Below, one piece after another: positions 3,985 through 32,299 of a DNA stretch of 64,000 nt (its first letter is position 1; every line of letters begins with the position of its first letter). A program made the translations under genes and the position numbers. The notes below the pieces were generated by a model. The model was not told the origin of the DNA, made no database searches, and was given only the letters and a program-made list of their open reading frames with translations. The DNA comes from Dokdonia pacifica (lineage in GTDB: Bacteria > Bacteroidota > Bacteroidia > Flavobacteriales > Flavobacteriaceae), in contig NZ_FZNY01000004.1 of assembly GCF_900188275.1 (NCBI RefSeq), positions 464,263 through 528,262 of the forward strand, read 5' to 3'.

Positions 3985-4004
3985 TACGCTTTCGCGAAAG
4001 CGTA
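3985..4004. repeat. Dispersed palindrome, copy 1 (accB-accC intergenic)
   Basis: A perfect 20-bp palindrome, TACGCTTTCGCGAAAGCGTA. It is one of eight copies of a shared core (GCTTTCGCGAAAGC) in the first 32.3 kb. It lies between two genes of one likely operon. Confidence 0.9.
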
Positions 4005-4053
4005 TAATGAATTTTTTAGAATTCTATAATTTCTTAAAAATAAATTGAACACT

Positions 4054-5394
4054 ATGTTTAAGAAAATACTTATTGCAAATAGAGGCGAGATCGCATTACG
4101 CGTTATAAGAACGTGTAAAGAGATGGGTATAAAAACCGTAGCTGTATATTCAAAAGCAGATGAAGAAAGTCTTCATGTGAAATTTGCAGACGAAGCAGTG
4201 TGTATAGGACCCGCTCCAAGTAACGAGTCTTACCTTAAAATGGCAAATATTATTGCTGCTGCAGAAATCACAAATGCCGATGCAATACATCCAGGATATG
4301 GATTCCTGTCTGAAAATGCTAAATTTTCAAAAATCTGTGAAGAGCACGATATTAAATTTATTGGGGCAAGTGCAGATATGATTAGTAAGATGGGAGATAA
4401 GGCAACTGCAAAAGCTACAATGAAAGCGGCAGGAGTGCCTTGTGTACCAGGCTCTGATGGAATTATTGCAGATTTTGAAGAGTGTACAAAATTAGCACTT
4501 GAAGTTGGATATCCAGTGATGCTTAAAGCAACTGCCGGAGGTGGAGGAAAAGGAATGCGTGCTGTTTGGAAAGAAGAAGATCTTTTAAAAGCATGGGAAT
4601 CTGCTCGTCAAGAATCTAAAGCTGCTTTTGGAAATGATGGAATGTATATGGAGAAGCTTATTGAAGAGCCTCGTCATATTGAAATCCAAGTGGTGGGCGA
4701 TAGTAATGGTAAAGCATGTCACTTGTCTGAAAGAGATTGCTCCGTACAACGTCGTCACCAAAAATTAACAGAAGAGACACCATCTCCGTTTATGACAGAT
4801 AAACTTCGAGATGCTATGGGAGAAGCTGCAGTACGCGCAGCAGAATTTATCAAATATGAAGGCGCAGGAACGGTAGAGTTTTTAGTAGACAAGCACCGTA
4901 ACTTCTACTTTATGGAGATGAATACACGTATTCAAGTAGAGCACCCTATTACAGAGCAAGTAGTAGATTACGATTTAATTCGTGAGCAAATTCTTGTTGC
5001 TGCTGGTGTGCCTATTTCTGGAAAGAATTACTACCCTCAATTACATTCTATAGAGTGTCGTATCAATGCAGAAGACCCTTATAACGATTTTAGACCTTCT
5101 CCAGGACGTATTACTAATTTACATGCGCCAGGAGGACACGGGGTTCGTATTGATACCCATGTGTATAGCGGGTATATGATACCACCTAATTATGACTCTA
5201 TGATCGCTAAGTTAATTACTACAGCGCAGACTCGTGAAGAGGCTATCAATAAAATGAAACGTGCATTAGATGAGTTTGTGATTGAAGGAATTAAAACAAC
5301 AATTCCTTTCCATAGACAATTAATGGATCATCCTGATTATATTGCTGGAAATTACACAACAAAGTTTATGGAAGACTTTGAAATGAAAGCATAA
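4054..5394 (+). CDS. accC: Acetyl-CoA carboxylase biotin carboxylase subunit
   Basis: ATP-dependent carboxylation of biotin on AccB, the first half of the acetyl-CoA carboxylase reaction. The 446-residue ATP-grasp protein has the N-terminus [17 protein letters not shown], the glycine-rich loop [10 protein letters not shown], the [13 protein letters not shown] block and the active-site stretch [13 protein letters not shown]. The family's usual length is about 450. The start is the ATG at 4054; an in-frame TTG nine bases upstream adds only MNT and is less likely. A strong terminator follows. Confidence 0.96.
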
Positions 5395-5420
5395 GTATAA
5401 TTGAAAGAATATATTTTTAA

Positions 5421-5450
5421 AAGCCAACCTAGTTTTAGGTTGGTTTTTCT
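5421..5450 (+). terminator. Rho-independent terminator after accC
   Basis: The stem CCAACCTA/TAGGTTGG with a 4-nt loop is followed by a long T-rich tract. It ends the fabH-accB-accC unit. Confidence 0.88.
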
Positions 5451-5511
5451 TTTTTAAAATACTATTAAGATTATTTTATAGATATGGTTTTATCTTTAGT
5501 GCTCCATTGAA

Positions 5512-6225
5512 ATGAAGAACGTGAAGAAAAGAAAAATTTTAATTCTAGATTATTCAGTAGATCGGTTAGAAACCCCTACCATTAAAAATTGTTTGACCGA
5601 ACCTAACTGGGAGGTGTCTTCCTTGTTTATAGATACCGCTGCATCATTTCCAGATGATCTGATCACAAAGGAGTATACGCATATCATTCACACAGGATCT
5701 GCATTGTCTATAAATGATACGGCTCCTTTTACAGAGAAGGCTATTCAATATATTCAGGATGCTTGTGATAAAGGAATATGGCAAATGGGGATTTGTTATG
5801 GGCATCAGTTAGTTTGTAAGGCCTTGGTAGGTGATCACGCGATTAGATCTTCTCCTCATGGATTTGAAGTAGGATGGGGACGCGTAAAATTTATAAATAG
5901 TGCAGCAAGTATATTACAGGTAGAACATCAAGAAGATGTATGGCAACACCATTTTGATGAAGTAGTAGCATTACCCGAAGGATCAGAGGTGTTAGCAACA
6001 AATGCGCATTCTTCAATACAAGCCTATATTAATTATGATCTCCATTTATTAGGAACTCAATTTCATCCTGAATTTTCTAAAGAAGCAGGAGATGCCTATT
6101 TTCAAAAGGATCGAGCGTTTATAGAAAAAAATAATGTAAGTGTAGATGATCTAGTATTGGGATGTCCCTCTTTTGATACCGCAAAAGTGTTCTTTACCTA
6201 TTTCTTATCACAAGAGTCATCCTAA
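5512..6225 (+). CDS. Class I glutamine amidotransferase-like protein
   Basis: A 237-residue stand-alone class I glutamine amidotransferase domain. The nucleophile is visible as Cys95 in GICYGHQLV, and the His-Glu pair as QFHPEFSKEAG near residue 190. Such single-domain proteins release ammonia from glutamine or hydrolyse gamma-glutamyl compounds, but the substrate cannot be assigned here. It sits alone between accC's terminator and a convergent minus-strand gene 2 bp past its stop. GMP-synthase amidotransferase subunits are a distant alternative, but no synthetase domain is adjacent. Confidence 0.82.
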   Translation: MKNVKKRKILILDYSVDRLETPTIKNCLTEPNWEVSSLFIDTAASFPDDLITKEYTHIIHTGSALSINDTAPFTEKAIQYIQDACDKGIWQMGICYGHQLVCKALVGDHAIRSSPHGFEVGWGRVKFINSAASILQVEHQEDVWQHHFDEVVALPEGSEVLATNAHSSIQAYINYDLHLLGTQFHPEFSKEAGDAYFQKDRAFIEKNNVSVDDLVLGCPSFDTAKVFFTYFLSQESS

Positions 6226-6227
6226 TG

Positions 6228-7112
6228 TTATCCATATAGGGGAGGACTATTTAAAATATCACGATGAATTTCCCCTGGATAAATTACATGTACAGGAACT
6301 TTGATATGATAGTATTTGCAGAGTTTAATAACATTGGTGTTTATCTCTTCTTTGGAATATCGAGATGAAAAGTGGTGTAAAATGAGCCTGTCTATAGTAA
6401 TATTAGAAACCATTTCTAATACTTCATTTAGTTTACTGTGTTTATTTCTTTCTTTAGGACTCTTTATAATAGCATTTGCTTGATCCTGAAGAAATGTAGA
6501 TTCATGGATGAGTATTTTTGAGTGATCCCATTTGTTATAGTCATCTACGGGTGTATCTCCTGCATAAGAGAGTATATTGGTATGTATAGTTTCCATCAAG
6601 TGATCTCTACCGTGTAATCCGATCATTTCTTTGATACTATTACCATTAAGATGAGAAAATTCTTTTTTTAATTTTTGTTTGGTTTGATAGAGTTTAAAGC
6701 TCAAGCTTTTTGAAACGTTTTGAGGAACAGCCACATGTTCATTACGAATAGCTTCTACATATAAATCATTACGAATTTCGATAGTATCTAAATGTTTTAT
6801 AGGGTGCCATTCAGTTCCTTGTATGTGTGTGTCAAATTTGTGCAAAAAATCCTTTATTGCGGGAAAAGAGCCACTATCTTTTGGATAATATACTTTTGGG
6901 AGTCCTTTTCTTGCATTAAGTTGATGAAGCTGAAAAAGCCCTGTGATATGATCTCTATCTGGGTGCGTAATAAAAACATATTTAATCTTTCCAGATTTTT
7001 GTAATAATCCAGCTGTAACTCCATCACCAGCATCGAATAAAAGATGTAATTCTTCTATATTAATCCATGTAGAAAATAAGGCTGTAGAATAGGCAGTGAT
7101 GTTTAAGTTCAT
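6228..7112 (-). CDS. RNase Z-like metallo-beta-lactamase fold protein
   Basis: A 294-residue MBL-fold protein related to RNase Z/ElaC. It shows LLFDAGDG, the metal motif THPDRDHITG (an aspartate where the second His of HxHxDH is expected), SYAGDTPVDDY, LIHESTF like the HEATF motif of RNase Z, and LILHHFSSRY near the C-terminus. The GHST-like exosite segment is replaced by KHSKL. A real tRNA 3'-processing enzyme normally keeps the full motif, so this may be a divergent paralogue with another phosphodiesterase role. The stop is 2 bp from the convergent amidotransferase gene, and the RelE-like gene lies 10 bp upstream. Confidence 0.75.
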   Translation of the reverse strand: MNLNITAYSTALFSTWINIEELHLLFDAGDGVTAGLLQKSGKIKYVFITHPDRDHITGLFQLHQLNARKGLPKVYYPKDSGSFPAIKDFLHKFDTHIQGTEWHPIKHLDTIEIRNDLYVEAIRNEHVAVPQNVSKSLSFKLYQTKQKLKKEFSHLNGNSIKEMIGLHGRDHLMETIHTNILSYAGDTPVDDYNKWDHSKILIHESTFLQDQANAIIKSPKERNKHSKLNEVLEMVSNITIDRLILHHFSSRYSKEEINTNVIKLCKYYHIKVPVHVIYPGEIHRDILNSPPLYG

Positions 7113-7121
7113 TATTGAGTT

Positions 7122-7433
7122 TTAATTTTTTGCTGAAGTTTCAGTAATTAAACTACTTATGGTTTTAGATAAAAGATCTTTTTCTTTCTTTTTAAAAATA
7201 GTAATAATAAATAATGGGGTATTCTTTCCTTGGTAGTAATAAACTAATTGATATTCATGTTTTTTATCTTTAGTATATCCTATATCTAGTACATAGATAT
7301 TATTAACTGCTTGTATTTTTTTTCCAATTTTTGGATTGTGAGAAATGTCTTCTATAAGATTTTCTATATAATCGGCATCATATTTTTTCTTACTCTTTTT
7401 TTGAAATTCTAATCCAATAATAACTGTATGCAT
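7122..7433 (-). CDS. Small RelE/ParE-like protein, no antitoxin seen
   Basis: A 103-residue basic protein. The C-terminal half, HEYQLVYYYQGKNTPLFIIT followed by IFKKKEKDLLSKTI, resembles the last strands and terminal Lys-rich helix of RelE/HigB-type mRNA interferases. There is no small DNA-binding antitoxin gene next to it: the neighbours are the RNase Z-like gene (10 bp downstream) and a terminator. It may be an orphan toxin, a solitary regulator of the same fold, or unrelated. The similarity is by eye only. Confidence 0.45.
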   Translation of the reverse strand: MHTVIIGLEFQKKSKKKYDADYIENLIEDISHNPKIGKKIQAVNNIYVLDIGYTKDKKHEYQLVYYYQGKNTPLFIITIFKKKEKDLLSKTISSLITETSAKN

Positions 7434-7490
7434 ATGAAATATAGTGTTCCTTTGATTGATTGTAAAAAAATGAGTTCTAAATGTATAATA

Positions 7491-7518
7491 AAAAACCGCC
7501 TCAATAGAAGCGGTTTTT
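7491..7518. terminator. Bidirectional-type terminator
   Basis: The stem AAAAACCGC/GCGGTTTTT encloses an 8-10 nt loop with A and T tracts on either side. It separates the minus-strand polyferredoxin gene from the RelE-like gene and could end the former's transcript. Confidence 0.75.
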
Positions 7519-7577
7519 GTTTTTTTATACGCTTTATCGCTTCGCTCTTCCGGTGGTCGTGAATCTCACAAGTTCGA

Positions 7578-7592
7578 TTTCGCGAAAGCGTA
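7578..7592. repeat. Dispersed palindrome, copy 2 (partial)
   Basis: TTTCGCGAAAGCGTA: the centre and right arm of the dispersed palindrome are intact, while the left arm is degenerate (TTCGA). It lies just past the stop of the polyferredoxin gene. Confidence 0.75.
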
Positions 7593-7614
7593 CATATAAA
7601 GAATCTTATAGTAA

Positions 7615-9261
7615 TTAACTTGCGTTTTTATTATTTACATAGTCCATTAGGTCTACATCATTTCCTAATAATACTTCAGTAGGATTGATACGACCTTCTA
7701 AAGAATCGTTTTCTAATTTAAGAACGCCACGAGGACATACCGCAGAACATACACCGCATCCTACACAACTAGAGCGTACAATGTTTTCTCCTTTTTGTGC
7801 ATAACTACGTACGTCAATTCCCATTTCACAATGTGTAGAACAATTACCACAAGAGATACATTGTCCTCCGTTAGTGGTAATTCTAAATTTAGAGAAAAGA
7901 CGTTGTTGTATTCCTAAAATACCCGCCATTGGACATCCCATACGACACCATACACGATTTCCAAGAATAGGATAGAATCCTGTCCCAATAACTCCTGAAA
8001 AGATAGAACCTATTCCAAATCCGTAAAAAGTTCGCATAGCCCCATCAAGACCATACGTATTTGTATTTAGCCCAAAAGAGAAATAAGCAGCATTTATTTG
8101 AATCTCATGAAAACGTAAGTATGACATTGCTACAAATGAAGCTAAAGTGATGACTAATGCAATTACGGCACCTTTAAAAGCATCATTCTTAAGTTGGTCT
8201 CTCTTAAAATATGCTACAATGGCAAACATAATGACTAGAAATGCTCCAGCACTTATAAGAAAAGTATTTTTTGTAAACCAGTATTTTGTACTGTCATAAC
8301 CTAGATATGTAGAAATAACCGCAGTAGTCATTACTACAGAAAATACAAGTACAGCATTGATCATCCAACGCTCTAATTTCCAAGCAGACATTTTTTTGGA
8401 AGATAAGTGTCTATATGGGTCTCCTGCAGTTTCTGCAAGACCACCACAACCACAAACCCAACTGCAATACCAACGTTTTCCGTATTTATACGTAAGAAAT
8501 GGAGAGATAACAAAGATGGTTACGATCCCTAATATCAAAAAGAATAATCCAATATTTTGAGCATTTATAAATTGATCTACACGCCATTGATCAAAAGCAT
8601 AGTAGTTTAGAGGCCACATGAGCTTAATATCATTGTATGGTAAAGAGAATGTATCTGAATTTAAACGAGCCATAAGTTCTGGAATGACAAAAGCAAATGC
8701 TGTTTGGAAAAACATGACACTTATGGTACGTAATTGCTCATAACGGTTGTGCTTATATTTCCACATAAACTTGACACCAAAAGCTAAGATAGCTATGGTG
8801 TATAAGGTTCCATATACAAACCATTCACTTGCGGCGCTTCCTTTTAATAAATAACTTAATGGGTCAAAAAGGCCAATAAGACCTGTGTTTGCACCATCTA
8901 CTCCTTGGCCAAGCCCTAGTACTCCTGCGTAGAAATAAAGGATAATGTAGAAGCCTGTGAGCACAATACCAGCGATCCAACCCAATACTCCACGCGATGA
9001 CATTGATTTAAACCAAACGCCATCATTTTTAATACCAGGAAGCTTATGAGCATATGCTCCTTTTGCAAAAATAATGACACCAGCAGTGATCGCTGTAAGT
9101 GAGATAGTAAGCCATAATGCAGCACTTCCTAAATCTACTCCTAATGCTGCTAGTAGCAGTATAAAAAGGCCAGCCATTCCTATGAGAACACCTATTTTTT
9201 GAGTTGTATTAATACTTACAGGTGGCTGTCCCGTAAGTGACATATTTCTTTCTATTGCCAT
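7615..9261 (-). CDS. NosR/CcoG-like membrane polyferredoxin
   Basis: A 548-residue integral membrane electron-transfer protein with about ten hydrophobic helices. Two membrane-side cysteine motifs, YCSWVCGCGG and CRMGCPMAG, are followed by two classical 4Fe-4S motifs near the C-terminus, CISCGNCSTHC and CVGCGVCSAVCP. The architecture matches the NosR/NapH/CcoG-type 4Fe-4S family. No nos, nap or cco genes are nearby. The next gene upstream on the same strand (68 bp) is an FAD pyridine-nucleotide oxidoreductase, so the pair may carry electrons from NAD(P)H or a ferredoxin to a membrane acceptor; that pathway is inference. Confidence 0.82.
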   Translation of the reverse strand: MAIERNMSLTGQPPVSINTTQKIGVLIGMAGLFILLLAALGVDLGSAALWLTISLTAITAGVIIFAKGAYAHKLPGIKNDGVWFKSMSSRGVLGWIAGIVLTGFYIILYFYAGVLGLGQGVDGANTGLIGLFDPLSYLLKGSAASEWFVYGTLYTIAILAFGVKFMWKYKHNRYEQLRTISVMFFQTAFAFVIPELMARLNSDTFSLPYNDIKLMWPLNYYAFDQWRVDQFINAQNIGLFFLILGIVTIFVISPFLTYKYGKRWYCSWVCGCGGLAETAGDPYRHLSSKKMSAWKLERWMINAVLVFSVVMTTAVISTYLGYDSTKYWFTKNTFLISAGAFLVIMFAIVAYFKRDQLKNDAFKGAVIALVITLASFVAMSYLRFHEIQINAAYFSFGLNTNTYGLDGAMRTFYGFGIGSIFSGVIGTGFYPILGNRVWCRMGCPMAGILGIQQRLFSKFRITTNGGQCISCGNCSTHCEMGIDVRSYAQKGENIVRSSCVGCGVCSAVCPRGVLKLENDSLEGRINPTEVLLGNDVDLMDYVNNKNAS

Positions 9262-9329
9262 ATCTTATAATTTAAACTCCTATTTTGTGAAATAAGAACT
9301 TTGTTGATTTATGATTTGATTTTGTTGTT

Positions 9330-10631
9330 TTACGCAGTTACTGCTTGCGATTTATATGTACTTATAATATCTTTTTCAAAGTGTTTGAAAAATTCAGGGT
9401 CAAAGTTTGCTTCAGCAAGATGTTCAACAACATAATCTGTACTGCGTTCTTCTGTAAGCCAACGATCAAAAACCTCATGTCTCATGCGGATCCCAAAATT
9501 GTTGATTCCTATAAATTTTCCAGTTGCAGCTTCCGTATTGATAGTGATACACTTTGTGTCATCTGTATGTTTCCAATGGAAATGTGTTTCTCCTTCGCGA
9601 GGTTTAGAAAATACCCATCCATAAGTTTGATATTCTATATCTAAAAACTTAGCGCTATTAAACCAGTGACCAGGATTGTATTGTCTAGGATTTCCACATA
9701 TGGTTTGTGCTACGGTTTCTCCCATCATTCTTCCTGTATACCATACTGCTTCTATAGGACGTCTTCCATTAATCCCTTCATGTTGCTCTGCGCAATCGCC
9801 TACAGCATAAATATCTGGAATATTGGTTTCTAGCATCCTATTTACTTTAATGCCTCTACCTAGTTCAATACCACTGTCTCTTAAGAAGTCAATGTTTGGA
9901 GATACACCAGCCGTAAGGCCTACGACATTACATGGAATTTCTTCTCCAGTTTCACCTATAACAATAGCACGAGCACGTCCATTTTCATCAGAGATAATTT
10001 CTCTAAGATTGGTGCCAAGTCGTAAATCAATATGATGATTTTTAATATGACGATTTATCATACCACTTTCACCATCTGGTAACACCCCATTCCAAAAACT
10101 CTTTTCTCTTACTAGAAAGGTAACAGGAATATCTCTAGATCGTAACATTTCTGCCATTTCAATTCCGATAAGACCTCCACCTACAATAACAGCTCTATTA
10201 CAGGCACTTTTATTAGGTGCATTTTTTTCAAGTTTTTCTAAATCTTGATAGGAGTATAAGCCTTGGACACCTTCTAAATCTTGACCGGGCCATCCAAATT
10301 TGTTCGGTTTAGAACCTACAGCAAGAACTAACTTATCATATGACATCGTTGTATCGTCTGCAAATTGTAACTGCTTATTGGCATGATCTACATTCTTTAC
10401 AAATGCACGTTTTAACTCAATTCTGTTTTTCTTCCAAAAATAATTTTCATACGGTTTTGTATGTTCATATTTCATATGCCCCATGTATATGTACATAAGT
10501 GCAGTACGTGAAAAGAAGTGATCAGTTTCTGCCGAGATAATAGTGATTTTCTTGTCAGATAACTTTCGGATGTGTCTTGCAGTCGTTACACCAGAAATTC
10601 CGTTACCTATTATAACAATGTGTTCTTCCAT
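9330..10631 (-). CDS. FAD-dependent NAD(P) oxidoreductase
   Basis: A 433-residue two-dinucleotide-fold flavoprotein. Seen: IVIIGNGISGVTTARHIR (FAD-binding GxGxxG), VIVGGGLIGIEMAE (NAD(P)-binding) and IYAVGDCAEQ (FAD-binding ATG/GD motif), the layout of ferredoxin/rubredoxin reductase-like and nitrite reductase NirB-like enzymes. The ATG at 10631 was chosen because an in-frame start 16 codons upstream would place the palindromic repeat and a poly-His tract in the protein. It is co-directional with the polyferredoxin gene and probably its partner. The substrate is unknown. Confidence 0.85.
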   Translation of the reverse strand: MEEHIVIIGNGISGVTTARHIRKLSDKKITIISAETDHFFSRTALMYIYMGHMKYEHTKPYENYFWKKNRIELKRAFVKNVDHANKQLQFADDTTMSYDKLVLAVGSKPNKFGWPGQDLEGVQGLYSYQDLEKLEKNAPNKSACNRAVIVGGGLIGIEMAEMLRSRDIPVTFLVREKSFWNGVLPDGESGMINRHIKNHHIDLRLGTNLREIISDENGRARAIVIGETGEEIPCNVVGLTAGVSPNIDFLRDSGIELGRGIKVNRMLETNIPDIYAVGDCAEQHEGINGRRPIEAVWYTGRMMGETVAQTICGNPRQYNPGHWFNSAKFLDIEYQTYGWVFSKPREGETHFHWKHTDDTKCITINTEAATGKFIGINNFGIRMRHEVFDRWLTEERSTDYVVEHLAEANFDPEFFKHFEKDIISTYKSQAVTA

Positions 10632-10650
10632 ATGATGGTGGTTGTTTTTT

Positions 10651-10668
10651 TGCTTTCGCGAAAGCGTA
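10651..10668. repeat. Dispersed palindrome, copy 3
   Basis: TGCTTTCGCGAAAGCGTA: the core with an intact right arm, 20 bp upstream of the FAD oxidoreductase start, so it lies in that gene's leader. Confidence 0.85.
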
Positions 10669-10891
10669 TAAAACAGCAATCACGATAGATTCCTAAATAA
10701 GGTCGTCTTAAAGATAATGAACTTAACAAATACAAATCATTTAGAATTATTTTAAATAAGCTTACAGTTTGTAAGGTTTTTGTGTTTTTTACTACACGGA
10801 TTTTTTTTGCAGAAAAGGAAAATATGACAACTTTTTTTGTAAGCGTAAAGAAATACTCACGACAGAAGCCAACATAAAATCGAAAATAAAA

Positions 10892-12869: not shown

Positions 12870-13874
12870 ATGTACTCTAAGATTCGTTTTTTTATTGCAT
12901 TCATTTTTGTTTTTCAAATAAACTGCCTACATGCTCAGAAAATTAATGGGATTAGCTTTGTCGCTTCAAGAGATAAGGCTACCAATGAACATGTAAAACC
13001 TGTTGTGGAAGTAGGAGCTAATTATGCTGCAGTCATGCCATTTGGGTTTATACGTGCTTTAGATAACCCAACTATAGTGTACAATACAGATCGGCAATGG
13101 TATGGTGAACGTCGAGAAGGGGCTAAAGACTATATAAAATTATTGCAGTCTAATGGGATTAAGGTGATGTTAAAGCCTCAATTATGGATCTGGAGAGGCG
13201 AGTATACTGGATACCTCAAAATGGAAACAGAAGAAAATTGGAAGGCATTAGAAACTTCTTATGAGGCGTTTATTTTAGATTATGCAAAACTGGCACAAGA
13301 AACGGGAACATCTATTTTTTCTATAGGAACAGAGTTAGAACAATTTGTTGCAAATCGGCCAGCATTTTGGGAATCCCTTATCAAAAAAATAAAAGCAGTT
13401 TATAAAGGGAAACTTACCTATGCTTCCAATTGGGATGAGTACAAACGTGTTCCTTTTTGGGATCAAATGGATTATGTAGGTGTAGATGCCTATTTTCCTC
13501 TTTCAGAAATGCAAACTCCTTCTGTAAAAAGTGTGATAGATGGATGGCGATGGTGGAAAGGAGAGCTATCTGCTTTTTCAAAATTGCATGGTAAAAAAAT
13601 CTTATTTACAGAATGGGGATATCGTAGTGTAGATTTTACAGCTAAAGAACCATGGACTTCAGATCATTCTGTAACTACTGTAAATCTAGAGGCACAAGCA
13701 AATACAACCAAGGCTACTTTTGATGCTTTATGGGGAGAAGATTGGTTTGCAGGCGGATTTATATGGAAGTGGTTTATTCATCATTCAAGATCTGGGGGAA
13801 GTGATAATAATAGATTTACACCTCAAAATAAACCTGCTGAAGCAGTAATAAAAGAATATTATGATAAAAACTGA
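12870..13874 (+). CDS. GH113-like glycoside hydrolase, secreted
   Basis: A 334-residue TIM-barrel protein with a signal peptide (FFIAFIFVFQINCLHAQ). It resembles the GH113/GTA-TIM group: an acid/base candidate Glu in SIGTELEQF, a strand-8 nucleophile candidate in LFTEWGYRS, and many conserved aromatics (QLWIWRGEYTGY, WRWWKGEL). Characterised GH113 enzymes act on beta-mannan; the substrate here is inference. Its 3' end overlaps the next gene by 14 bp, so a lipoprotein of unknown function is probably co-translated with it. Confidence 0.75.
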   Translation: MYSKIRFFIAFIFVFQINCLHAQKINGISFVASRDKATNEHVKPVVEVGANYAAVMPFGFIRALDNPTIVYNTDRQWYGERREGAKDYIKLLQSNGIKVMLKPQLWIWRGEYTGYLKMETEENWKALETSYEAFILDYAKLAQETGTSIFSIGTELEQFVANRPAFWESLIKKIKAVYKGKLTYASNWDEYKRVPFWDQMDYVGVDAYFPLSEMQTPSVKSVIDGWRWWKGELSAFSKLHGKKILFTEWGYRSVDFTAKEPWTSDHSVTTVNLEAQANTTKATFDALWGEDWFAGGFIWKWFIHHSRSGGSDNNRFTPQNKPAEAVIKEYYDKN

Positions 13875-14610
13875 TTTCTTATGGGTTTGTTTTTTAGTAT
13901 TGCTAATGTCATGTAATAGTGATAATGAGACGATTGCTGGACAAGATGATGATGGCTCATTAGCTACTTTGGTGGCTCAAAATACTATAGAAATAGATAA
14001 TGTGATTGCCTGTGCTTCAGGTTCTGAAAATCCAAATGAAATTATTGCGTATGTATATCCTAGGCCGGGCGCTTCAGATATACGTTATTTTGAAACGGAA
14101 ACCGTTACAGTAGATAAAAATGATTATCAAAATTACACTCAAGTACTTCTTCCTGAGGGTGATTTTTTTAATGGATATCTCAAAACTTTTACACAACAAA
14201 CGGCTGTTGAGAAATGGGTGATTATAAGCTTTCGCGAAAGCGGAATACTGCACCTTTCCAATCCTATACGATTAAAACATCAAACGCAGAATACTCATTT
14301 TACCGATATGGTATCTATTGATCAATCCCAGACAGGAATGCCTCTTTTTAATTGGGAACCTTTAGTACAGCCTCAAGATGCTATTTATTTTCAAGTAGTA
14401 TCTGATGCTTCTAATGAATTACTTTCTGGAACATACACCTTTGAACCTCAATTTAGATATTACCAATTAGAGAATGTGGTGCTTAATATCACAGAAGAAA
14501 CACCGCCAGAATTAATAAGTCAAACTCCATATGGTTATACCGTGATGGGCGTAAGTGAAGATAATTGGGTTAATACATTGTTACAGGCAGAATTTGTTTT
14601 GGAGGATTAA
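13861..14610 (+). CDS. Lipoprotein of unknown function
   Basis: A 249-residue protein with a lipoprotein signal (FLWVCFLVLLMSCNSDNE, lipobox LMSC). The rest is mostly beta-strand-like with no family I recognise. It overlaps the upstream glycosidase by 14 bp, which suggests the two act together at the cell surface. One copy of the dispersed palindrome lies in the coding sequence and is read through in frame as SFRES (about residues 123-127), inside the segment KWVIISFRESGILHL. Confidence 0.65.
   Translation: MIKTDFLWVCFLVLLMSCNSDNETIAGQDDDGSLATLVAQNTIEIDNVIACASGSENPNEIIAYVYPRPGASDIRYFETETVTVDKNDYQNYTQVLLPEGDFFNGYLKTFTQQTAVEKWVIISFRESGILHLSNPIRLKHQTQNTHFTDMVSIDQSQTGMPLFNWEPLVQPQDAIYFQVVSDASNELLSGTYTFEPQFRYYQLENVVLNITEETPPELISQTPYGYTVMGVSEDNWVNTLLQAEFVLED
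14228..14241. repeat. Dispersed palindrome, copy 4 (in a gene)
   Basis: GCTTTCGCGAAAGC within the lipoprotein gene, read in frame as Ser-Phe-Arg-Glu-Ser. The outer arm bases are lost. Confidence 0.85.
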
Positions 14611-18805: not shown

Positions 18806-19666
18806 TTATTTTGATTCTAGATATTTGTAAATAGCGGTAAAGTCTAAATCTCCTAAACCGTTTTGTGTTGCTTTTGCATAGAGCTCTTTTGTTACATTTA
18901 AACTAGGAGTAGCTACACCAACTTCGTACGCAGAAATACTAGAGAGGTGCAAATCTTTATGTAGCCATTTTAGGGGGAAGTTTGCCTCGTAGTTTTGTTG
19001 TTCTAATTTAGGTCTTACGGCCTGTATAACAGGAGCGACTACAGGTGTAGCAGTCAAAACATTCAATAGAAGTTCTTCTTGAAGTCCCATTGCTTTTCCC
19101 ATGGTAAGCGCCTCGGCAACAGCTGCCATTTGCTGTCCTAGTAATTGATTGATCAGCATTTTCATAGCGGCTCCTTTTCCAATAGTACCCAGGTGTATTG
19201 TTTTTTTGCCCATACAATCCAAAAGCGGTTTTGCTTGTGCCAGATCTTGTGAATCTCCTCCTACCAAAAACAGCAATTCTCCAGCTTCAGCAGGACCTTT
19301 AGTTCCAGCTACAGGAGCATCTAAATAACGTATGTTATGCTTTCGCGAAAGCGTACCCATCATTTCTGTAAATGAGGGGTTAATGGTGCTCGTATTGATC
19401 CAAAGCGCATTGTCTTTAAATGATGACAGTATGGGTGTGATAGTATTCTCAACCACTTCTGGAGTAGATAGCATGGTGATTAGAATATCGCTTTTCATGA
19501 CTACATCTTTAGGGCTAGAAGCCCATAATGCACCGTTTTCTATAAGCGCTGTTGCTTTTTCTTTTGTGCGATTATAAATAATGAGATCACAACCTGCTTT
19601 TTGAAGATTGCGAGCCATACGACTTCCCATAATTCCTAATCCGATAAATCCTATTTTTTTATTCAT
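18806..19666 (-). CDS. NAD(P)-dependent beta-hydroxyacid dehydrogenase
   Basis: A 286-residue member of the 3-hydroxyisobutyrate dehydrogenase/GLYR family. The Rossmann motif GFIGLGIMGSRMARNL comes first, then NRTKEKA, the substrate-binding motif YLDAPVAGTKGPAEAGEL and the catalytic Lys in LLGQQMAAVAEAL/KMLINQ. The start at 19666 begins MNKKIGFIG; the longer in-frame start adds 11 non-family residues. The substrate (succinic semialdehyde, 3-hydroxyisobutyrate or similar) is not decidable. One palindrome copy is read in frame as TLSRK. An AraC regulator is encoded upstream on the same strand. Confidence 0.85.
   Translation of the reverse strand: MNKKIGFIGLGIMGSRMARNLQKAGCDLIIYNRTKEKATALIENGALWASSPKDVVMKSDILITMLSTPEVVENTITPILSSFKDNALWINTSTINPSFTEMMGTLSRKHNIRYLDAPVAGTKGPAEAGELLFLVGGDSQDLAQAKPLLDCMGKKTIHLGTIGKGAAMKMLINQLLGQQMAAVAEALTMGKAMGLQEELLLNVLTATPVVAPVIQAVRPKLEQQNYEANFPLKWLHKDLHLSSISAYEVGVATPSLNVTKELYAKATQNGLGDLDFTAIYKYLESK
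19339..19355. repeat. Dispersed palindrome, copy 5 (in a gene)
   Basis: GCTTTCGCGAAAGCGTA inside the dehydrogenase gene, read on the minus strand as Thr-Leu-Ser-Arg-Lys. Confidence 0.88.
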
Positions 19667-19753
19667 GATTTTTGTTTTATGAGAACAAATTTCTATCAAA
19701 ATGGAAGCGTTAAATTTCCAAATACATCAAAAATGGTGATTTCTAGTCAAAAA

Positions 19754-21896: not shown

Positions 21897-23012
21897 TTAA
21901 GTGTTTGCCTTTAAGTGCGTTGGAGATTTTCCGGTAATTTTCTTAACCGCTCTATTAAAAGATGCTTTTGAATTAAAACCAGCATCATAGGCAATAGAAA
22001 GTAAGGTGTATTTATTGCTTTTAGGGTCTTGGAGTACTCGTTTTACTTCTTCTATTCGAAGCTCATTGATGTAATCGGTAAACTTTTTTTGTAGAATGTT
22101 GTTTAAAGATTTGGTCACGAGGTATGGTTTCTGGTTTAGCTTTCGCGAAAGCGTACTCAACGTTAATTCTGGATCTTTATATAAAGATTCTTCTTCCATG
22201 AGTTTCTGTATGGATGCTGCAATGTCTTCTAGTTGTCTTTGCTCTTTGGTAGATAGCTTCTGGATGGGTTTTACTGCGGCATCTTTACGTCTGGAAAATC
22301 CTTCTATTCCTAACCAATAGGTGATGATTGCCATTCCTATAAAAACAGGGTGTCCATAAAATAAATTACTAGCAAAATTGAAGAAAAAGTAATCTATAAG
22401 AATCCCTATGATGTATACAATAGCAAATATTTTGATCACGATTACAACGCGCTTAATCCATTGTAGCTTTCCTGCTATACGTTCATAATTTGTAAGTTCA
22501 GAAAGGTGAGAAAGTATTTTTTGAGATTTGCTTGTATAATAGATGAGAAGCGCACTTGAAATAACGTACATGGTTGGATAAAGCATCCAAGCCATATATC
22601 CATAATAACCAAGCCAAGAAAGACTTTCTCTGGTTCCATCCCAATAGAAGTTTTGAGATTTTATAAAGAAACTCCAAATGATTTCAATAACAACGGGAAG
22701 GAAATGAATGTAATCTTTTCGCTTTAAGCGAAAATCAGGATTGACATAACTCTTCACAAAGAAAAAGAGGAGTGTACCGTATATCCAATTATACTCTAAG
22801 AGTACTTGATACCAAAAATCATATCGGCCATATCCAAATATCTTACTTGTTTCTACTAATAATCGATAAGAAAAAAAGAAAAGAATAGCTGCGAGAAATC
22901 TATTGGCATAAAAATGCATGCCTTTTTTTTGAGATAGAATACTTCCATATACAATCCCTTGAAAAGCACCTACAGATAATAAGACAATGAGGATATACTC
23001 TATAGATTTCAC
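21897..23012 (-). CDS. Membrane-bound AraC-type regulator
   Basis: A 371-residue protein with seven or eight hydrophobic helices in the first 235 residues (IEYILIVLLSVGAFQGIVYG onward) and a C-terminal AraC HTH domain (LSTLSRKLNQKPYLVTKSL, then LLSIAYDAGFNSKASFNRAVKKITGKSPT). This membrane-anchored AraC architecture is common in Bacteroidota; it presumably senses a membrane or periplasmic signal and acts on nearby genes. It contains one palindrome copy read as TLSRK at the start of the recognition domain. A glycosyltransferase gene ends 23 bp upstream. Confidence 0.83.
   Translation of the reverse strand: MKSIEYILIVLLSVGAFQGIVYGSILSQKKGMHFYANRFLAAILFFFSYRLLVETSKIFGYGRYDFWYQVLLEYNWIYGTLLFFFVKSYVNPDFRLKRKDYIHFLPVVIEIIWSFFIKSQNFYWDGTRESLSWLGYYGYMAWMLYPTMYVISSALLIYYTSKSQKILSHLSELTNYERIAGKLQWIKRVVIVIKIFAIVYIIGILIDYFFFNFASNLFYGHPVFIGMAIITYWLGIEGFSRRKDAAVKPIQKLSTKEQRQLEDIAASIQKLMEEESLYKDPELTLSTLSRKLNQKPYLVTKSLNNILQKKFTDYINELRIEEVKRVLQDPKSNKYTLLSIAYDAGFNSKASFNRAVKKITGKSPTHLKANT
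22139..22155. repeat. Dispersed palindrome, copy 6 (in a gene)
   Basis: GCTTTCGCGAAAGCGTA within the HTH-coding part of the membrane AraC gene, read as Thr-Leu-Ser-Arg-Lys. Confidence 0.88.
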
Positions 23013-27740: not shown

Positions 27741-28553
27741 TTATATAGTTTTTATTAATTCTGTAAATAAGGTGATCATATTAGGCTCTGCTTTTGCTGC
27801 CATCGCTATAATCTCTGGAATATCTACAGGTGCTAAATTATCAGGATCACACTCATCTGTTAATACAGAAATAGCACTTACAGGAAGCTTTAAATGATTG
27901 GCAACAATAATTTCTGGTACAGTACTCATTCCTACTGCATCAGCGCCAATAAGCTTAATGTATCTGTATTCTGCTCTAGTTTCTAATTGTGGTCCAACTA
28001 CAGAGGCATACACTCCTTTATGTAAATGAATTCCATGCGTAGTAGCTATTTTTTCTAGAGAAGCATTCATCGTTGCATTATAGGGAGCGCTCATATCTGT
28101 AAACCGTTCTCCCAGTTTTTCTACACCTTTAAAAGCAAGAGGAGATCCACCTTGTAAATTGATGTGGTCATCAATAAGCATAAGTTCTCCTTTTTTAAAG
28201 TTGAGGTTTACAGCGCCTGCAGCATTAGAGACTAATAGTTTTTGAATACCTAATGCATGCATAATGCGTACAGGAAATGTCACATCTGTAAGGGAATACC
28301 CTTCATACAAATGAAAACGCCCTTGCATGACAATCACTTTCTTTCCTACTAATGTTCCATAAATTAACTTCCCCGTATGAAACTCAACTGTCGCGGTAGG
28401 AAAATTAGGGATGTGATTATAACTCACTTCTTTGATGATCGTTATTTTATCTAGAAGTTGTCCTAGTCCAGTTCCTAGAATAATTCCAATTTCTGGATTG
28501 TCAAATCCTTTGTTTTTAAGGTAGTCTGTAGTCTCTTGAATGATTTTTATCAT
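27741..28553 (-). CDS. Purine nucleoside phosphorylase
   Basis: A 270-residue trimeric-type purine nucleoside phosphorylase: GIILGTGLGQLLD (phosphate loop), PTATVEFHTGKLIYG, VMQGRFHLYEGYS, VSNAAGAVN, VGPQLETRAEYRYIKLIGADAVGMST. It phosphorolyses purine nucleosides to base and ribose-1-phosphate. Its place in the arsenosugar operon is suggestive: arsenosugar formation starts from SAM-derived 5'-deoxyadenosyl arsenicals, and removal of adenine from such a nucleoside is a reasonable step. That role is inference. It is flanked at 10 bp by the DM13-T9SS gene. Confidence 0.9.
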   Translation of the reverse strand: MIKIIQETTDYLKNKGFDNPEIGIILGTGLGQLLDKITIIKEVSYNHIPNFPTATVEFHTGKLIYGTLVGKKVIVMQGRFHLYEGYSLTDVTFPVRIMHALGIQKLLVSNAAGAVNLNFKKGELMLIDDHINLQGGSPLAFKGVEKLGERFTDMSAPYNATMNASLEKIATTHGIHLHKGVYASVVGPQLETRAEYRYIKLIGADAVGMSTVPEIIVANHLKLPVSAISVLTDECDPDNLAPVDIPEIIAMAAKAEPNMITLFTELIKTI

Positions 28554-28562
28554 AGTTGTTAG

Positions 28563-29270
28563 TTACTGAATGATCAGTTTTTTTGTTGTTTTTTGATCCC
28601 CTGATGAAATGGTCATGATATAGATTCCAGCTTTTAAAGAGGGTACATATATGGTTTGATTGGTAATATTTTGTTGTGTATGAACTTGCTTTCCTAGAAC
28701 ATCATAAATTACCATATCGTTATTTTGTGTGGTAAGTCCTGATATGGAAAATTGATCTTTCATAGGATTTGGAGAAATATCCATGCTATCAAATACATTT
28801 GCATCTACAGCAAGTGTTGAGCAATCTGCACCTTCATTATCCCCTAATGTAGCACGTCCCCATAAAACATCAGCTTGCACGCATTGTATAATGATATATG
28901 TGAAATCTCCAAGGTTTACACTATCTGGAACATCAAAAGTTTTCATTCCGGTAATTGGATCATTCATATCTTGACCTCCATTATCATCTTGTAGAGGTTC
29001 TGTCGTTACTTCTAGTTCGGTTCCTCCTTGATCAAGGCGTTCGGTAGTTGATAGGAATACACGTAATTCTATTCCTTGTACTGTTGCAAAATCATCTGCA
29101 AAGATTACTTGTTTGCTTCCGTCGGTTTCAAATTGTAAAAATGCAGTACCTTCTACTGGATAATCTTGAGGATCATCTACAGCAGCAAGTGCTCCTTCTC
29201 TAAAGCATTGTGCTTGTGTAATAGTTGAGATTAAAATAAATGCAATAAGTACGATTGTTGTTTTTTTCAT
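28563..29270 (-). CDS. DM13-domain protein with T9SS type A tail
   Basis: A 235-residue exported protein: signal MKKTTIVLIAFILISTITQAQ, a DM13-like domain (about residues 40-145; GTAFLQFETDGSKQVIFADD, ELRVFLSTTERLD, FTYIIIQCVQADVLWGRATL with the typical single Cys), then a type A type IX sorting domain, ISPNPMKDQFSISGL to KKLIIQ. DM13 domains are predicted redox or electron-transfer modules. Its last four bases overlap the start of the transferase gene read in the same direction, so it is translationally coupled to the arsenosugar operon, which is odd for a cell-surface protein. Confidence 0.8.
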   Translation of the reverse strand: MKKTTIVLIAFILISTITQAQCFREGALAAVDDPQDYPVEGTAFLQFETDGSKQVIFADDFATVQGIELRVFLSTTERLDQGGTELEVTTEPLQDDNGGQDMNDPITGMKTFDVPDSVNLGDFTYIIIQCVQADVLWGRATLGDNEGADCSTLAVDANVFDSMDISPNPMKDQFSISGLTTQNNDMVIYDVLGKQVHTQQNITNQTIYVPSLKAGIYIMTISSGDQKTTKKLIIQ

Positions 29271-29899
29271 GGCTGTAGTTTTAATTGATTTATATAGTTA
29301 GTAAACTCTGGATAAGGTTGTAAATCTTCCGCAAAGTCTATGTCATTTAATTCTTCTAATGTATGGACTGTATATGATGAAAGGTCTTTTAAAGTGCTTT
29401 CAAGCACCGTGTCGCCTCCCCATTCTTTATGTTTAAAAACGTCGGAAACAAGGGTGCTCATCCCTAATAAATAATAGCCTCCATCTTTTGCAGGACCAAT
29501 AACAGCATCATGTGTAGATAATGCATGAAAAGCCTCTTCTATGTGATGCGGTTGTAAATCATAAAGATCACTTCCTATAATCACTACTTTTTTATAATTA
29601 TCTGAAAATGCATCAGAAAATGCTTCTTCCATACGTTGTCCTAAGTCATCTCCTTGCTGTTGGAATTTCTCAAAAAGAGATTCTTCCCAGATGTCATTTG
29701 TTCGCACTTTTACAGAATAACCCACTCTTTTTGTGCAGTTATTTTGAACAACTACATCATGTGTGTGTTGTAATAGCTGCTTATAAATAGTGAGTGCGTT
29801 TTCTTGTCCAACCCCTTTTGCTAGGCGTGTTTTTACTTTACCCAGCTCAGGATTTCGAGTGAATATAAGAAGAATGTTATCTGTGTTTTGTATGCTCAC
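29267..29899 (-). CDS. TIGR04282-type transferase, intact copy
   Basis: A 210-residue nucleotidyl/glycosyltransferase-fold protein of the rSAM/selenodomain-associated 'transferase 1' group (CofC/MobA-like). It has the N-terminal NPELGKVKTRLAKGVG motif, LGQRMEEAF, VVIIGSDLYDLQPHHIEEAF, AVIGPAKDGGYYLLGM and WGGDTVLESTL. In arsenosugar clusters this family is thought to modify the ribose part; the reaction is not proven. It overlaps the rhodanese stop by 1 bp and the DM13 gene by 4 bp. It retains the KTRL motif that the second copy (30,493) has lost. Confidence 0.82.
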   Translation of the reverse strand: MSIQNTDNILLIFTRNPELGKVKTRLAKGVGQENALTIYKQLLQHTHDVVVQNNCTKRVGYSVKVRTNDIWEESLFEKFQQQGDDLGQRMEEAFSDAFSDNYKKVVIIGSDLYDLQPHHIEEAFHALSTHDAVIGPAKDGGYYLLGMSTLVSDVFKHKEWGGDTVLESTLKDLSSYTVHTLEELNDIDFAEDLQPYPEFTNYINQLKLQP

Positions 29900-30393
29900 T
29901 ATTTATATACTTTAATACCTGTTTGTAAATATTTTCCCCATTCTTTGCTATACACATGTACGCTATCTGTGGGTCTTTTTTGTTGATTCACGATTGTATA
30001 CCCTTTGTCTTTCCAAGAGAAAATACTTCCGTAGAGGTTAAACACATTCGTGTAACCTAGTTTTTGAAGGCTTTCTCCAAAGTTTTCAGAACGCACTCCT
30101 ATAGAACAGTAGACTACAATGGGTTGCGATTTGTCTGGGTACGCTTTCGCGAAAGCGTATACATCTAATTTCTCATTACTCCATATAGCATTTGGGATAT
30201 GACTCACCAAAAACTCTTCTTTTTTACGGGTATCTAAAATCAAATAGGCATCTTTATTTTTGTGTAGTTTTTCTACCGAAATATAGGGCACCGTTTGATC
30301 ATTGTAGTTTTTTAATACAACATCTATATCCATAGGTTCTTGAGCCCATGTAGGTGCTGTAATAAAAAATAAAATGATAACTATTAATTTCAT
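29899..30393 (-). CDS. Exported rhodanese-like protein
   Basis: A 164-residue protein with a signal peptide (MKLIVIILFFITAPTWAQ) and a single rhodanese domain: AYLILDTRKKEEFLVSHIPNA, active loop VVYCSIGVRSENFGESLQ (Cys nucleophile), GSIFSWKDKGY. It probably handles sulfane sulfur or binds oxyanions in the periplasm. The start at 30393 gives a clean signal peptide; an in-frame ATG 63 bp upstream does not. One perfect palindrome copy lies inside the gene and is read as YAFAKAY. It sits within the arsenosugar operon. Confidence 0.82.
   Translation of the reverse strand: MKLIVIILFFITAPTWAQEPMDIDVVLKNYNDQTVPYISVEKLHKNKDAYLILDTRKKEEFLVSHIPNAIWSNEKLDVYAFAKAYPDKSQPIVVYCSIGVRSENFGESLQKLGYTNVFNLYGSIFSWKDKGYTIVNQQKRPTDSVHVYSKEWGKYLQTGIKVYK
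30140..30159. repeat. Dispersed palindrome, copy 7 (in a gene)
   Basis: A perfect 20-bp palindrome inside the rhodanese gene, translated as Tyr-Ala-Phe-Ala-Lys-Ala-Tyr between the substrate loop and the active-site strand. Confidence 0.9.
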
Positions 30394-30492
30394 GTTTGAT
30401 CTAAATACTTCTGAGTGAATTACAACATGTATGTGTACTGTTGCATTGCTATCCATTATGATGGATTGATTTTATGCTAGATGTAGCATAAA

Positions 30493-31206
30493 TTATAGAA
30501 GATGAGGAGAAGGAGAACCTTTATTCAATATGTTATTAAGAATAAAGGAGTGTATGAAATTTTGAATGTCTTTACGTGCATTTGTTGTTGTAGTAACGAT
30601 AGCTTGTAAAGTTTGCTTAAGTACACTGTTTGTTAACTTTGGCTCTTTTTGAAGCATCTTTTCAATATCAAATACAGTATCAATATCGGTTAATGCTTGC
30701 AGTATGATTATATTTTCATTTTCTGATGTTAAACTAAGTAGTTTGTCAGAAAGTGAATTTGTTTGCCAAGGTAATTCTATAAATTGCGCTGGATCAAATT
30801 TTGATTTGTGTAATCCTATAAGATAGAAACCTCCATCTTTTGAAGGGCCTAAAATAAATTTATGTGATTCTAATTTTTGAGCCGCTTCTACAATGTGATG
30901 TACTTGTAAATTGGGAGTGTCATTTCCTATCGTTATGACATTATCATACCCTTTGTCATAAATGGATTGTATGGCATTTGTTAAGCGTTCTCCAAAGGTA
31001 TTCCCTGTTTGTTCTTCTTCAGTAATTCTGAAGTAGGGGAGGTTGCTTTTTTGTACGGTAGCAATGGTATGATTATTTAACTGCGTAAATAAGTGCGCTG
31101 CATTTTTAAACGGTTTATTGGCCGCTTCTTTTTGAGCAGATTGTGCAAATATTAATATGGCAGTTTTTTCTGTTTTCACTATACTTAAGCTACTGTTCCT
31201 TGACAA
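30493..31206 (-). CDS. TIGR04282-type transferase, degenerate copy
   Basis: A 237-residue paralogue of the transferase at 29,267. It keeps TFGERLTNAIQSIYDKGYDNVITIGNDTPNLQVHHIVEAAQ and FILGPSKDGGFYLIGL, but the N-terminal GxVKTRL motif is gone (FAQSAQKEAANKPF instead), and it has a C-terminal extension of about 45 residues. It overlaps the arsS stop region by 22 bp. It may be catalytically altered and act as a partner of the intact copy, or have changed substrate. Confidence 0.78.
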   Translation of the reverse strand: MSRNSSLSIVKTEKTAILIFAQSAQKEAANKPFKNAAHLFTQLNNHTIATVQKSNLPYFRITEEEQTGNTFGERLTNAIQSIYDKGYDNVITIGNDTPNLQVHHIVEAAQKLESHKFILGPSKDGGFYLIGLHKSKFDPAQFIELPWQTNSLSDKLLSLTSENENIIILQALTDIDTVFDIEKMLQKEPKLTNSVLKQTLQAIVTTTTNARKDIQNFIHSFILNNILNKGSPSPHLL

Positions 31207-32243
31207 CTACTACCTGCACCAGCAGTGCATCCATAGCAATGTTGTGAGATGACAATATCGCGATTATTTAGAACTTCTTCGTTATACTCAGAAATATGTT
31301 TGATTTTTGAATTGACTTTAAGGCCAAGCATTTGGTTAAAATCACAGTCGTAAAGCCATCCATCCCAACTTATAGAAATGGTATTGGTACACATCACATT
31401 AGCCACTGCCATTGGATTATAGGCCTCTACCAATTGGTACATATAATCCTCATAGTTTTCTGATGCGATTAGGTAATCTAAGAATCTAGCAATAGGGAGA
31501 TTGGTAATGGCAAAAAGATTATGGAATTGAATACCAAAATCTTCCATTAATGCTTTTTTGAAATCCTTCTCCATACTGGCTTGATCTCCAGGTAAAAATG
31601 CTCCTGATGGGTTGTATACAAGATCCAATCGTAAATCACTATCAGGCATTCCATAACCTACAGCATTTAATTCTTGTAAGGCTTTGATAGATTTGTCAAA
31701 AACACCATCACCACGTTGTTTATCTGTTTTTCCTTTAGTCCAGTGTGGCATAGAAGAGATGACATGTACATTGTGTTTTTTGAAAAACTCAGGTAAGTCA
31801 TAGTACTTTTTATTAGCTCTTATAATGGTAAGATTACTACGTACAATAAAATCTTTAATTCCAGCTTTACTTGCTTCTTCTACAAAGCGTCTAAAATGCG
31901 GATTCATTTCTGGTGCTCCTCCTGTAAGGTCTAATGTATGTGCACCTGTATTGCGTATCACATCTAAACATAACTCCATCGTTTCCCAAGTCATAATTTC
32001 TTTACGATCAGGACCTGCATCTACATGGCAGTGATCGCATACTTGATTACACATATATCCTACATTAATTTGTAGAATTTCTAGTTTTCGAGGACGCAAT
32101 GGAAACTGATTTGTTTCTTTTATTTTTTTTGCAAATGTGGGTAATTCTCCATTTTGGAAAATACCATTAGAGAGTATTTCCAACTGGCGATTTGCATCTG
32201 CCAGTTCGTTTTCGCTCTTTTTAAGTGATTTTGTTGCTCCCAT
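31185..32243 (-). CDS. arsS: Arsenosugar biosynthesis radical SAM protein ArsS
   Basis: A 352-residue radical SAM enzyme that, in characterised relatives, joins the 5'-deoxyadenosyl radical to dimethylarsenite to make the arsenosugar precursor. Seen: CNQVCDHCHVDAGPDRKE (the CxxxCxxC 4Fe-4S site, about residue 70), LDLTGGAPEMNPHFRRFV, and a C-terminal Cys-rich part with SISWDGWLYDCDFNQML and QHCYGCTAGAGSSCQG. It is the second gene of the operon, after the peroxidase-like gene. A palindrome copy sits in the 57-bp gap between them. Confidence 0.9.
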   Translation of the reverse strand: MGATKSLKKSENELADANRQLEILSNGIFQNGELPTFAKKIKETNQFPLRPRKLEILQINVGYMCNQVCDHCHVDAGPDRKEIMTWETMELCLDVIRNTGAHTLDLTGGAPEMNPHFRRFVEEASKAGIKDFIVRSNLTIIRANKKYYDLPEFFKKHNVHVISSMPHWTKGKTDKQRGDGVFDKSIKALQELNAVGYGMPDSDLRLDLVYNPSGAFLPGDQASMEKDFKKALMEDFGIQFHNLFAITNLPIARFLDYLIASENYEDYMYQLVEAYNPMAVANVMCTNTISISWDGWLYDCDFNQMLGLKVNSKIKHISEYNEEVLNNRDIVISQHCYGCTAGAGSSCQGTVA

Positions 32244-32275
32244 ATATATTGCCTGTAAGGCGGGTATCTTTACTG

Positions 32276-32299
32276 TATACGCTTTCGCGAAAGCGTATA
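32276..32299. repeat. Dispersed palindrome, copy 8 (intergenic)
   Basis: The most extended copy: a perfect 24-bp palindrome (the 20-mer plus TA on each side as TA..TA), in the gap between the peroxidase-like gene stop and the arsS start. It is the last copy I saw before the tRNA and island. Confidence 0.92.

Follow-up and report, generated by a model that had tools for sequence, protein, structure and literature searches.

The palindrome and its surroundings

The window analysed here, a stretch of 64 kb from the genome of Dokdonia pacifica (Flavobacteriaceae), carries dispersed copies of a short palindrome, the subject of this text, in its first half; a tRNA-Phe gene marks the border, and behind it a type I restriction-modification (R-M) system, an integrase and a relaxase lie in an accessory half free of the palindrome (Table 1). 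The 14-mer GCTTTCGCGAAAGC, termed a site below, is present in seven exact copies. An eighth copy is the variant GATTTCGCGAAAGC, with one mismatch in the 14-mer and the 10-bp TTTCGCGAAA intact, and the shorter TTCGCGAA is confined to these eight places across the 64 kb. The original prediction, made from the letters of this stretch, had listed eight copies; the palindrome is real and seven of them are exact, while the one placed at 7578 is the one-mismatch variant. The perfect 20-mer form is found three times (the last at 32278), and the final copy is legible over the 24 bp claimed for it, as are the four in-gene readings SFRES, TLSRK (twice) and YAFAKAY. The copy at 10652 is probably intergenic, since it lies upstream of the first ATG (codon 17) of its open reading frame (ORF). 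Past 32,294 there is no copy of the 14-mer even at three or fewer mismatches, in agreement with the claim that none follows 32,299, and 100 shuffles of the window gave 0 copies of GCTTTCGCGAAAGC. The last 31.7 kb hold 0 sites against 5.2 predicted from the genome mean, a Poisson probability of about 0.006 for a split point picked post hoc, after the data had been seen.

Table 1. Copies of the palindrome and neighbouring features. Positions are those of the window, except in the last two rows, where they are those of the locus named.
Feature	Position	14-mer	Strand	Context
Perfect 20-bp palindrome	3985..4004	from 3988		Intergenic, between biotin/lipoyl-domain gene 3457-3948 and biotin carboxylase gene 4045-5394
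Variant copy, GATTTCGCGAAAGC	7573..7592	7576-7589		Intergenic, between ORFs 7122-7433 and 7615-9261
Exact 14-mer	10649..10668	10652-10665		5' end of ORF 9330-10679 (-), codons 5-10 from TTG start
Exact 14-mer	14225..14244	14228-14241		Within ORF 13861-14610 (+), reading SFRES
Exact 14-mer	19336..19355	19339-19352		Within dehydrogenase-like gene 18806-19699 (-), reading TLSRK
Exact 14-mer	22136..22155	22139-22152		Within AraC-type regulator gene 21897-23012 (-), reading TLSRK
Perfect 20-mer	30140..30159	from 30143		Within rhodanese-like gene 29899-30456 (-), reading YAFAKAY
24-bp perfect palindrome	32276..32299	from 32281		Between radical-SAM/DUF3641 gene 31185-32243 (-) and CMD-family gene 32301-32687 (-)
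tRNA-Phe	32852..32927		+	Border of site-bearing half and site-free accessory half
Accessory half without sites	33316..64000			Type I R-M genes 33316-36812, tyrosine integrase 39121-39693, TrwC relaxase 54295-57147
Other palindrome, CGATAGCTATCG	3419, 7643, 7725, 9866			Locus L057, Hyunsoonleella aquatilis
Other palindrome, CGATAGCTATCG	8214			Locus L088, Confluentibacter flavum

Abundance and distribution

The 5.52-Mb genome to which the window belongs holds 903 copies of the site, and the reversed sequence taken as control has 0. Blocks of 200-400 kb, six in all and drawn from six genomes, hold 34-71 copies each, far above the 0.1-1.2 expected from a Markov-5 model (at most 0.01 when the sites are masked). 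The shuffles, the reversed control and the Markov-5 expectation rule out chance or base composition as the source. All 18 Dokdonia genomes examined are rich in sites (369-905 copies each), as are all 23 Nonlabens genomes (288-857 each). Among 299 sampled genomes of Flavobacteriaceae, five from three genera stand at 408-903 copies and the remaining 294 at 19 or fewer, and an order-level sample of 395 genomes, which overlaps that of the family, contains only three rich genomes, all in the same three genera. In a tree of one conserved window protein the second rich genus groups with a named Nonlabens record (support 100/100) and Dokdonia adjoins the third rich genus, less firmly supported at 93/77. 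The palindrome is thus over-represented genome-wide and throughout its lineage, a trait looked for in DNA uptake sequences.

Copy number is weakly related to genome size (Spearman 0.40, P 0.18, in 13 genomes with a completeness of 90% or more); within Dokdonia, 903 copies are found in 5.5 Mb, 899 in 3.3 Mb and 570 in 4.3 Mb. Three genomes fall below their congeners, G302 and G307 with 369 and 385 copies, both incomplete, and G314 with 570 in 4.3 Mb, at a completeness of 99%. The restriction to a few genera, like the regular spacing, the conservation across species and the genus dialects described below, goes beyond what had been noticed in the window itself. No description of this palindrome was found among the papers listed in searches of the open-licence PMC literature; the 14-mer itself occurs in none, and shorter forms of it occur in papers that look unrelated by title and opening of the abstract.

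Placement and structure of the motif

Among 335 sites, 159 (47%) are intergenic, 174 lie in ORFs and two at edges, giving a density about eightfold higher between genes in DNA that is about 90% coding by simple ORF calls. The sites within genes occupy all three phases (91, 43 and 40), which extends to 174 sites the use of all reading frames first noticed in the window, and AFAKA is the commonest reading. Intergenic sites shun the last 20 bp ahead of starts and often lie near, and downstream of, stop codons; their distances to gene starts are broad, and spacers of convergent gene pairs are not enriched in them (17 of 159 sites, where such spacers make up 13% of the intergenic DNA).

The logo of 441 sites is dyad-symmetric over about 28 bp, the flanks extending the dyad. 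Flank position 1 is G or C in 83% of sites, the positions beyond it are A/T-rich, and at positions 4-6 G is depleted (C on the opposite side); the motif approximates TAC-GCTTTCGCGAAAGC-GTA with T-rich flanks on the left and A-rich flanks on the right. The arms covary little at flank positions 1, 3 and 4 (at position 1, 0.705 complementary against 0.696 expected), with position 2 exceptional (0.494 against 0.391), an excess that may reflect genus dialects: at positions 2 and 3 Dokdonia prefers T then A and Nonlabens either A or G in each place, with a weaker preference in the third genus. Since the arms vary almost independently, a selected hairpin is unlikely, and a hairpin or terminator was rejected on this ground and on the lack of a convergent-gene excess.

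Spacing

The sites are spaced more evenly than random, as is looked for in uptake sequences. In seven genomes pooled, 15 of 447 gaps are shorter than 1 kb against 93 expected, and three are shorter than 500 bp against 49; two members of the pool, G299 and G300, are homologous, and with G300 left out the deficit of short gaps stands (11 of 378 below 1 kb, 78 expected). Of the six genomes that contribute many gaps, five show a coefficient of variation (CV) of 0.44-0.75 for gap length. Escherichia coli Chi, taken as a yardstick of similar density, is randomly spaced, with 13 of 60 gaps below 1 kb against 13.7 expected in 250 kb. Around one complete chromosome (G299), each of twenty 20-kb samples holds one to eight sites.

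Conservation in place and origin of sites

Aligned sites are identical in place far more often than control 14-mers: 11 of 11 at 95% DNA identity (controls 54%; 8 more sites unaligned), 14 of 14 at 92% (44%; 3 unaligned), 16 of 17 at 90% (33%; none unaligned) and 42 of 56 at 80% (11%; 15 unaligned). At about 72-73% identity, where the majority of sites are unaligned (34-51 of 52-61), the shared fractions are 11/17, 11/18, 8/13, 5/10 and 1/3 against 2-3% of controls, and between Dokdonia and Nonlabens DNA only two sites align, one of them shared. Comparisons of sites within genes across Dokdonia, in which a single site may count several times, found the site shared in 150 of 213 cases, replaced in a gapless alignment in 49 and in a gapped one in 14, so that sites in genes appear to arise mostly by substitution. 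In DNA alignments, 6 of 14 non-shared sites in G299 and 4 of 7 in G300 coincide with gaps, and some sites between genes may thus have originated by insertion. One-mismatch copies are scarce (37, against 335 exact). The alignments indicate that the sites are conserved above their surroundings and arise in place, which is again looked for in uptake sequences; together with the dyad of the logo, this lends support to the binding site with conserved arms that the original prediction had suggested as one reading.

A repair site, also named there, stays a suggestion only, and an active short palindromic element had been put forward as well. Spread by insertion of a unit, as by a repetitive extragenic palindromic (REP) sequence or another mobile palindrome, is rejected within genes on the 49 gapless against 14 gapped replacements; between genes the gaps beside G299 sites leave it some room. 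As an account of the sites in general, a REP-like mobile element or a transcription terminator or regulator site is scarcely credible: the 47% of intergenic sites, their frequent place after stop codons and the gaps in G299 speak for it, and against it stand the gapless replacement in genes, the half of the sites inside genes, the missing enrichment between convergent genes, flanks that are T-rich on the left and A-rich on the right, the opposite of a terminator, the broad distances to starts and the near independence of the arms.

Acquired DNA and phages

The original prediction held that absence of the palindrome marks accessory DNA as recent. The window's second half, site-free behind its tRNA gene, agrees with the first part of this claim, and 0 of its 25 ORFs match the compared Dokdonia stretches against 19 of 33 in the first half, a comparison biased by stretches partly picked for synteny with that first half. 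In 400 kb of the window's contig, four 20-kb bins lack any Dokdonia-like ORF, the window's island included, and their site counts are 0, 0, 2 and 0. Genes for a strawberry-notch-type helicase, an R-M methylase and a transposase lie in a site-free interval of 60 kb. The scarcity of sites in acquired DNA is in this way partly demonstrated, and the sites are biased towards the core genome, with phage contigs and stretches exchanged between genera as exceptions. Use of site absence for dating needs care, since copies are carried by these phage contigs and by 62 kb of a genome (G076) from the genus of Patiriisocius marinus. In G076, 14 of 16 copies lie in this one stretch (contig C3:32331-94750, loci L285-L288), apparently DNA transferred from a site-rich lineage. 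Six site-poor genomes (G076, G078, G087, G101, G160 and G215) share a pair of sites spaced by exactly 933 bp. In locus L173 (640-13605, from G078), the one of the six that was annotated, both sites of the pair lie inside an outer-membrane efflux gene, within a metal-efflux locus comprising an AcrB-type pump, the outer-membrane efflux protein, a multicopper oxidase, an ArsP-like permease and a P-type ATPase.

Metagenomic flavophage contigs form two groups with palindromes at matching places, A (L234, L218, L221, L222, L209 and L212) and B (L217, L229, L231 and L233). Group A has portal and capsid genes in one contig and an integrase in another, and the integrase makes it probably temperate. The groups are about 65% identical. 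One site is exact in both members of group B compared (L217 and L229). Another is exact in L229 and differs by a single letter in L217, a further one also differs by a single letter, and the others are unaligned. The related Nonlabens phages P12024S and P12024L (L202 and L203) carry no sites in 71 kb; each has 0 copies of TCGCGA against about 3.5 expected from composition, a possible avoidance. For comparison, HP1 and HP2, two related temperate phages of Haemophilus, have 17 copies each of the 9-mer of the uptake signal sequence (USS), against 3 of the reversed form. Phage structural genes with sites raise the idea of a gene transfer agent; the portal protein was not found in 30 genomes, in a search run without a positive control.

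Candidate factors

No receptor was found among the factors surveyed. ComEC is present in all 20 of the genomes searched for it, both rich and poor in sites. In Riemerella columbina, another member of the Flavobacteriaceae, own DNA is taken up preferentially, and A/T-rich k-mers are listed for it (PMC7965970). ParB is single in 14 of the 15 rich genomes and 10 of the 15 poor ones, with no extra ParB, and the putative helix-turn-helix (HTH) region is alike in both when judged by eye; ParB/Noc was rejected as the site-specific factor, there being no paralogue particular to site-bearing genomes. Canonical parS, with up to two mismatches allowed, was not found in stretches of 18-20 kb around parB in any of 16 flavobacterial genomes (L271-L284, L289 and L290), an uninformative result since rich and poor genomes lack it alike. 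A C5 methylase occurs in four of 11 site-rich genomes and an N6/N4 methylase above the cut-off in two, and five match neither. A short N6-methylase-like ORF was also observed in the window at 57594-58301, in the island half that contains the type I R-M genes.

A scan of 80 named loci for other dialects, over 4.5-21 kb each and of low power, gave one lead. The palindrome CGATAGCTATCG, set within CCCGATAGCTATCGGG-like sequence, has four core copies in 21 kb of Hyunsoonleella aquatilis and one in Confluentibacter flavum, and may be a terminator, a repeat or another tag.

A palindromic uptake sequence as the favoured reading

The neisserial DNA uptake sequence (DUS) and the Pasteurellacean USS are described in two papers as evenly spaced, biased to the core genome, absent from recently acquired genes, more strongly conserved than their surroundings and placed at permissive locations (PMC2397512, PMC1939737). 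The second of these reports that earlier work found significantly even spacing, argues for an origin by point mutation and judges the spacing less even than a role in compaction would require. Mean USS spacing is given as about 1 kb (PMC7811141), and DUS dialects have been used to find integrative elements (PMC7371117), the same logic as the idea of an island in the window. In Neisseria the length of recombination tracts is reported to match the site spacing. The flavobacterial palindrome resembles DUS and USS in copy number (hundreds to thousands), in its regular spacing, in being scarce in acquired DNA, in conservation in place, permissive locations and flanking letters that form genus dialects, and in occurring in phages, as USS does in HP1 and HP2. 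It differs from them in being symmetric, in its 14-bp core within about 28 bp, in its sparser occurrence (about one per 4-6 kb), in the rarity of near-miss copies and in its Bacteroidota host, and its role in biased uptake is a proposal. Because most of the published traits are matched, an uptake-type self tag is judged the most likely reading, with an intracellular site of nucleoid or nuclease-protection type as the chief alternative, and the probability that the palindrome is a DNA uptake (self-recognition) sequence is put at about 0.52.

Under this reading a dimeric receptor or DNA-binding protein would read the dyad over about 28 bp, and DNA bearing a site would be preferentially taken up, or kept, in natural transformation. 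Recombination of the favoured fragments would then create, repair and conserve sites by molecular drive. One site per fragment would be enough, so that sites would spread to about one per 4-6 kb and would not be favoured close together; they would accumulate where proteins tolerate them and stay scarce in DNA arriving by other routes.

Several observations weigh against it. Conservation of sites between phage groups about 65% identical points to selection acting on the phage, for which uptake is a less direct explanation. Near-miss copies are commoner in USS than for this palindrome. Around the site at 30143, 56 of 63 protein comparisons are gapped within the surrounding 18-residue stretch, two of five window proteins gave no usable match in the protein comparison, and sharing of in-gene sites across genera is low (3 of 15 comparisons, at two distinct positions). 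The genome of the window itself is uneven by its CV (about 1.24-1.25), on account of long site-free stretches, and the third rich genus (G190) has a CV that is not significantly low (P 0.07), although both show fewer short gaps than expected. The 8-mer control for spacing is poor: 9 of its 23 8-mers are contained in the palindrome, and the remaining 14 cluster (ratios 2.75-4.48). Placement is not uniform, with only 5 of 34 sites intergenic in G190. In-ORF sites are no more than about twice as dense in ORFs that match the Dokdonia stretches as in ORFs that do not (16 in 114 kb against 17 in 237 kb), and the partial choice of these stretches for synteny bears on which ORFs count as accessory. 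ComEC occurs in site-poor genomes as well and so does not discriminate. Flavobacterium johnsoniae was not competent under the conditions used for Riemerella (PMC7965970). Competence of these bacteria, uptake as the biased step and the existence of a receptor are what we infer. To our knowledge all uptake sequences are asymmetric, and a palindromic one would be the first; those we know of come from proteobacterial families only. Searches of the open-licence PMC literature found no palindromic uptake sequence described for Bacteroidota.

Alternative readings

A further reading, possible though held only tentatively, sees in the palindrome a regularly spaced intracellular chromosomal address, about one per 4 kb, read by a candidate dimeric protein, common to host and phages and written in genus dialects. 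Such an address would serve self-marking or nucleoid organisation and would be unlike parS, Chi, HIP1 and uptake sequences. The main rival to an uptake sequence is rather unlikely as it stands: a dimeric nucleoid-associated, segregation or nucleoid-occlusion protein would bind the site and load every few kilobases, and resident phages would have adopted it. The 28-bp dyad with its little covariation, the regular spacing, the sites all round the G299 chromosome and their conservation in phage contigs are consistent with such a protein. If the site were vital to chromosome architecture, one would hardly expect stretches of 30-60 kb to lack it, or most of the family's sampled genera to have next to none, and the ParB survey, with no extra copy and an HTH region similar in rich and poor genomes, does not favour it. 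The palindrome shares with parS and Noc-binding sites a dyad with TTTC...GAAA arms, but the spacing of its half-sites is 2 bp shorter, and it occurs in hundreds of copies round the chromosome.

A self-label read by a defence or nuclease system, by which site-less DNA would be degraded and site-bearing DNA spared in the manner of Chi, is improbable. The genome-wide frequency resembles that of Chi, sites are conserved in phage contigs, and the two related Nonlabens phages carry none. Chi is a short asymmetric octamer, unlike a palindromic 14-mer with a logo of about 28 bp; it is randomly spaced in the 250 kb of E. coli; and the records of the site-less P12024S and P12024L give Persicivirga as host.

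An origin like that of HIP1, the highly iterated palindrome of cyanobacteria, in methylation-dependent repair tied to a conserved orphan methyltransferase is less probable still. The two motifs are alike in being palindromic, highly iterated and present in and between genes, and the CpG-rich core resembles HIP1 as described in PMC4390886. The flavobacterial palindrome is longer, sparser, regularly spaced and conserved in place, the last two features being unexpected of a mutational process, and no methyltransferase is conserved in the two families surveyed, whose patchy occurrence in site-rich genomes counts against this origin.

Significance

In plain terms, a 14-letter palindrome found in hundreds of copies per genome, a few thousand letters apart and kept between species, looks like a label of self. 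Should the uptake reading prove wrong, hundreds of regularly spaced copies of a dyad would be a feature of the chromosome for which no description was found in the literature searched. On either reading the palindrome directly marks acquired DNA and its donor lineage, for example at the metal-efflux locus common to several genera. If the favoured reading as an uptake tag is true, its symmetry would let the receptor be fished out biochemically, competence would be predicted in ocean bacteria of the Dokdonia and Nonlabens type, and sequence-tagged exchange of DNA would have evolved independently in marine Flavobacteriaceae.

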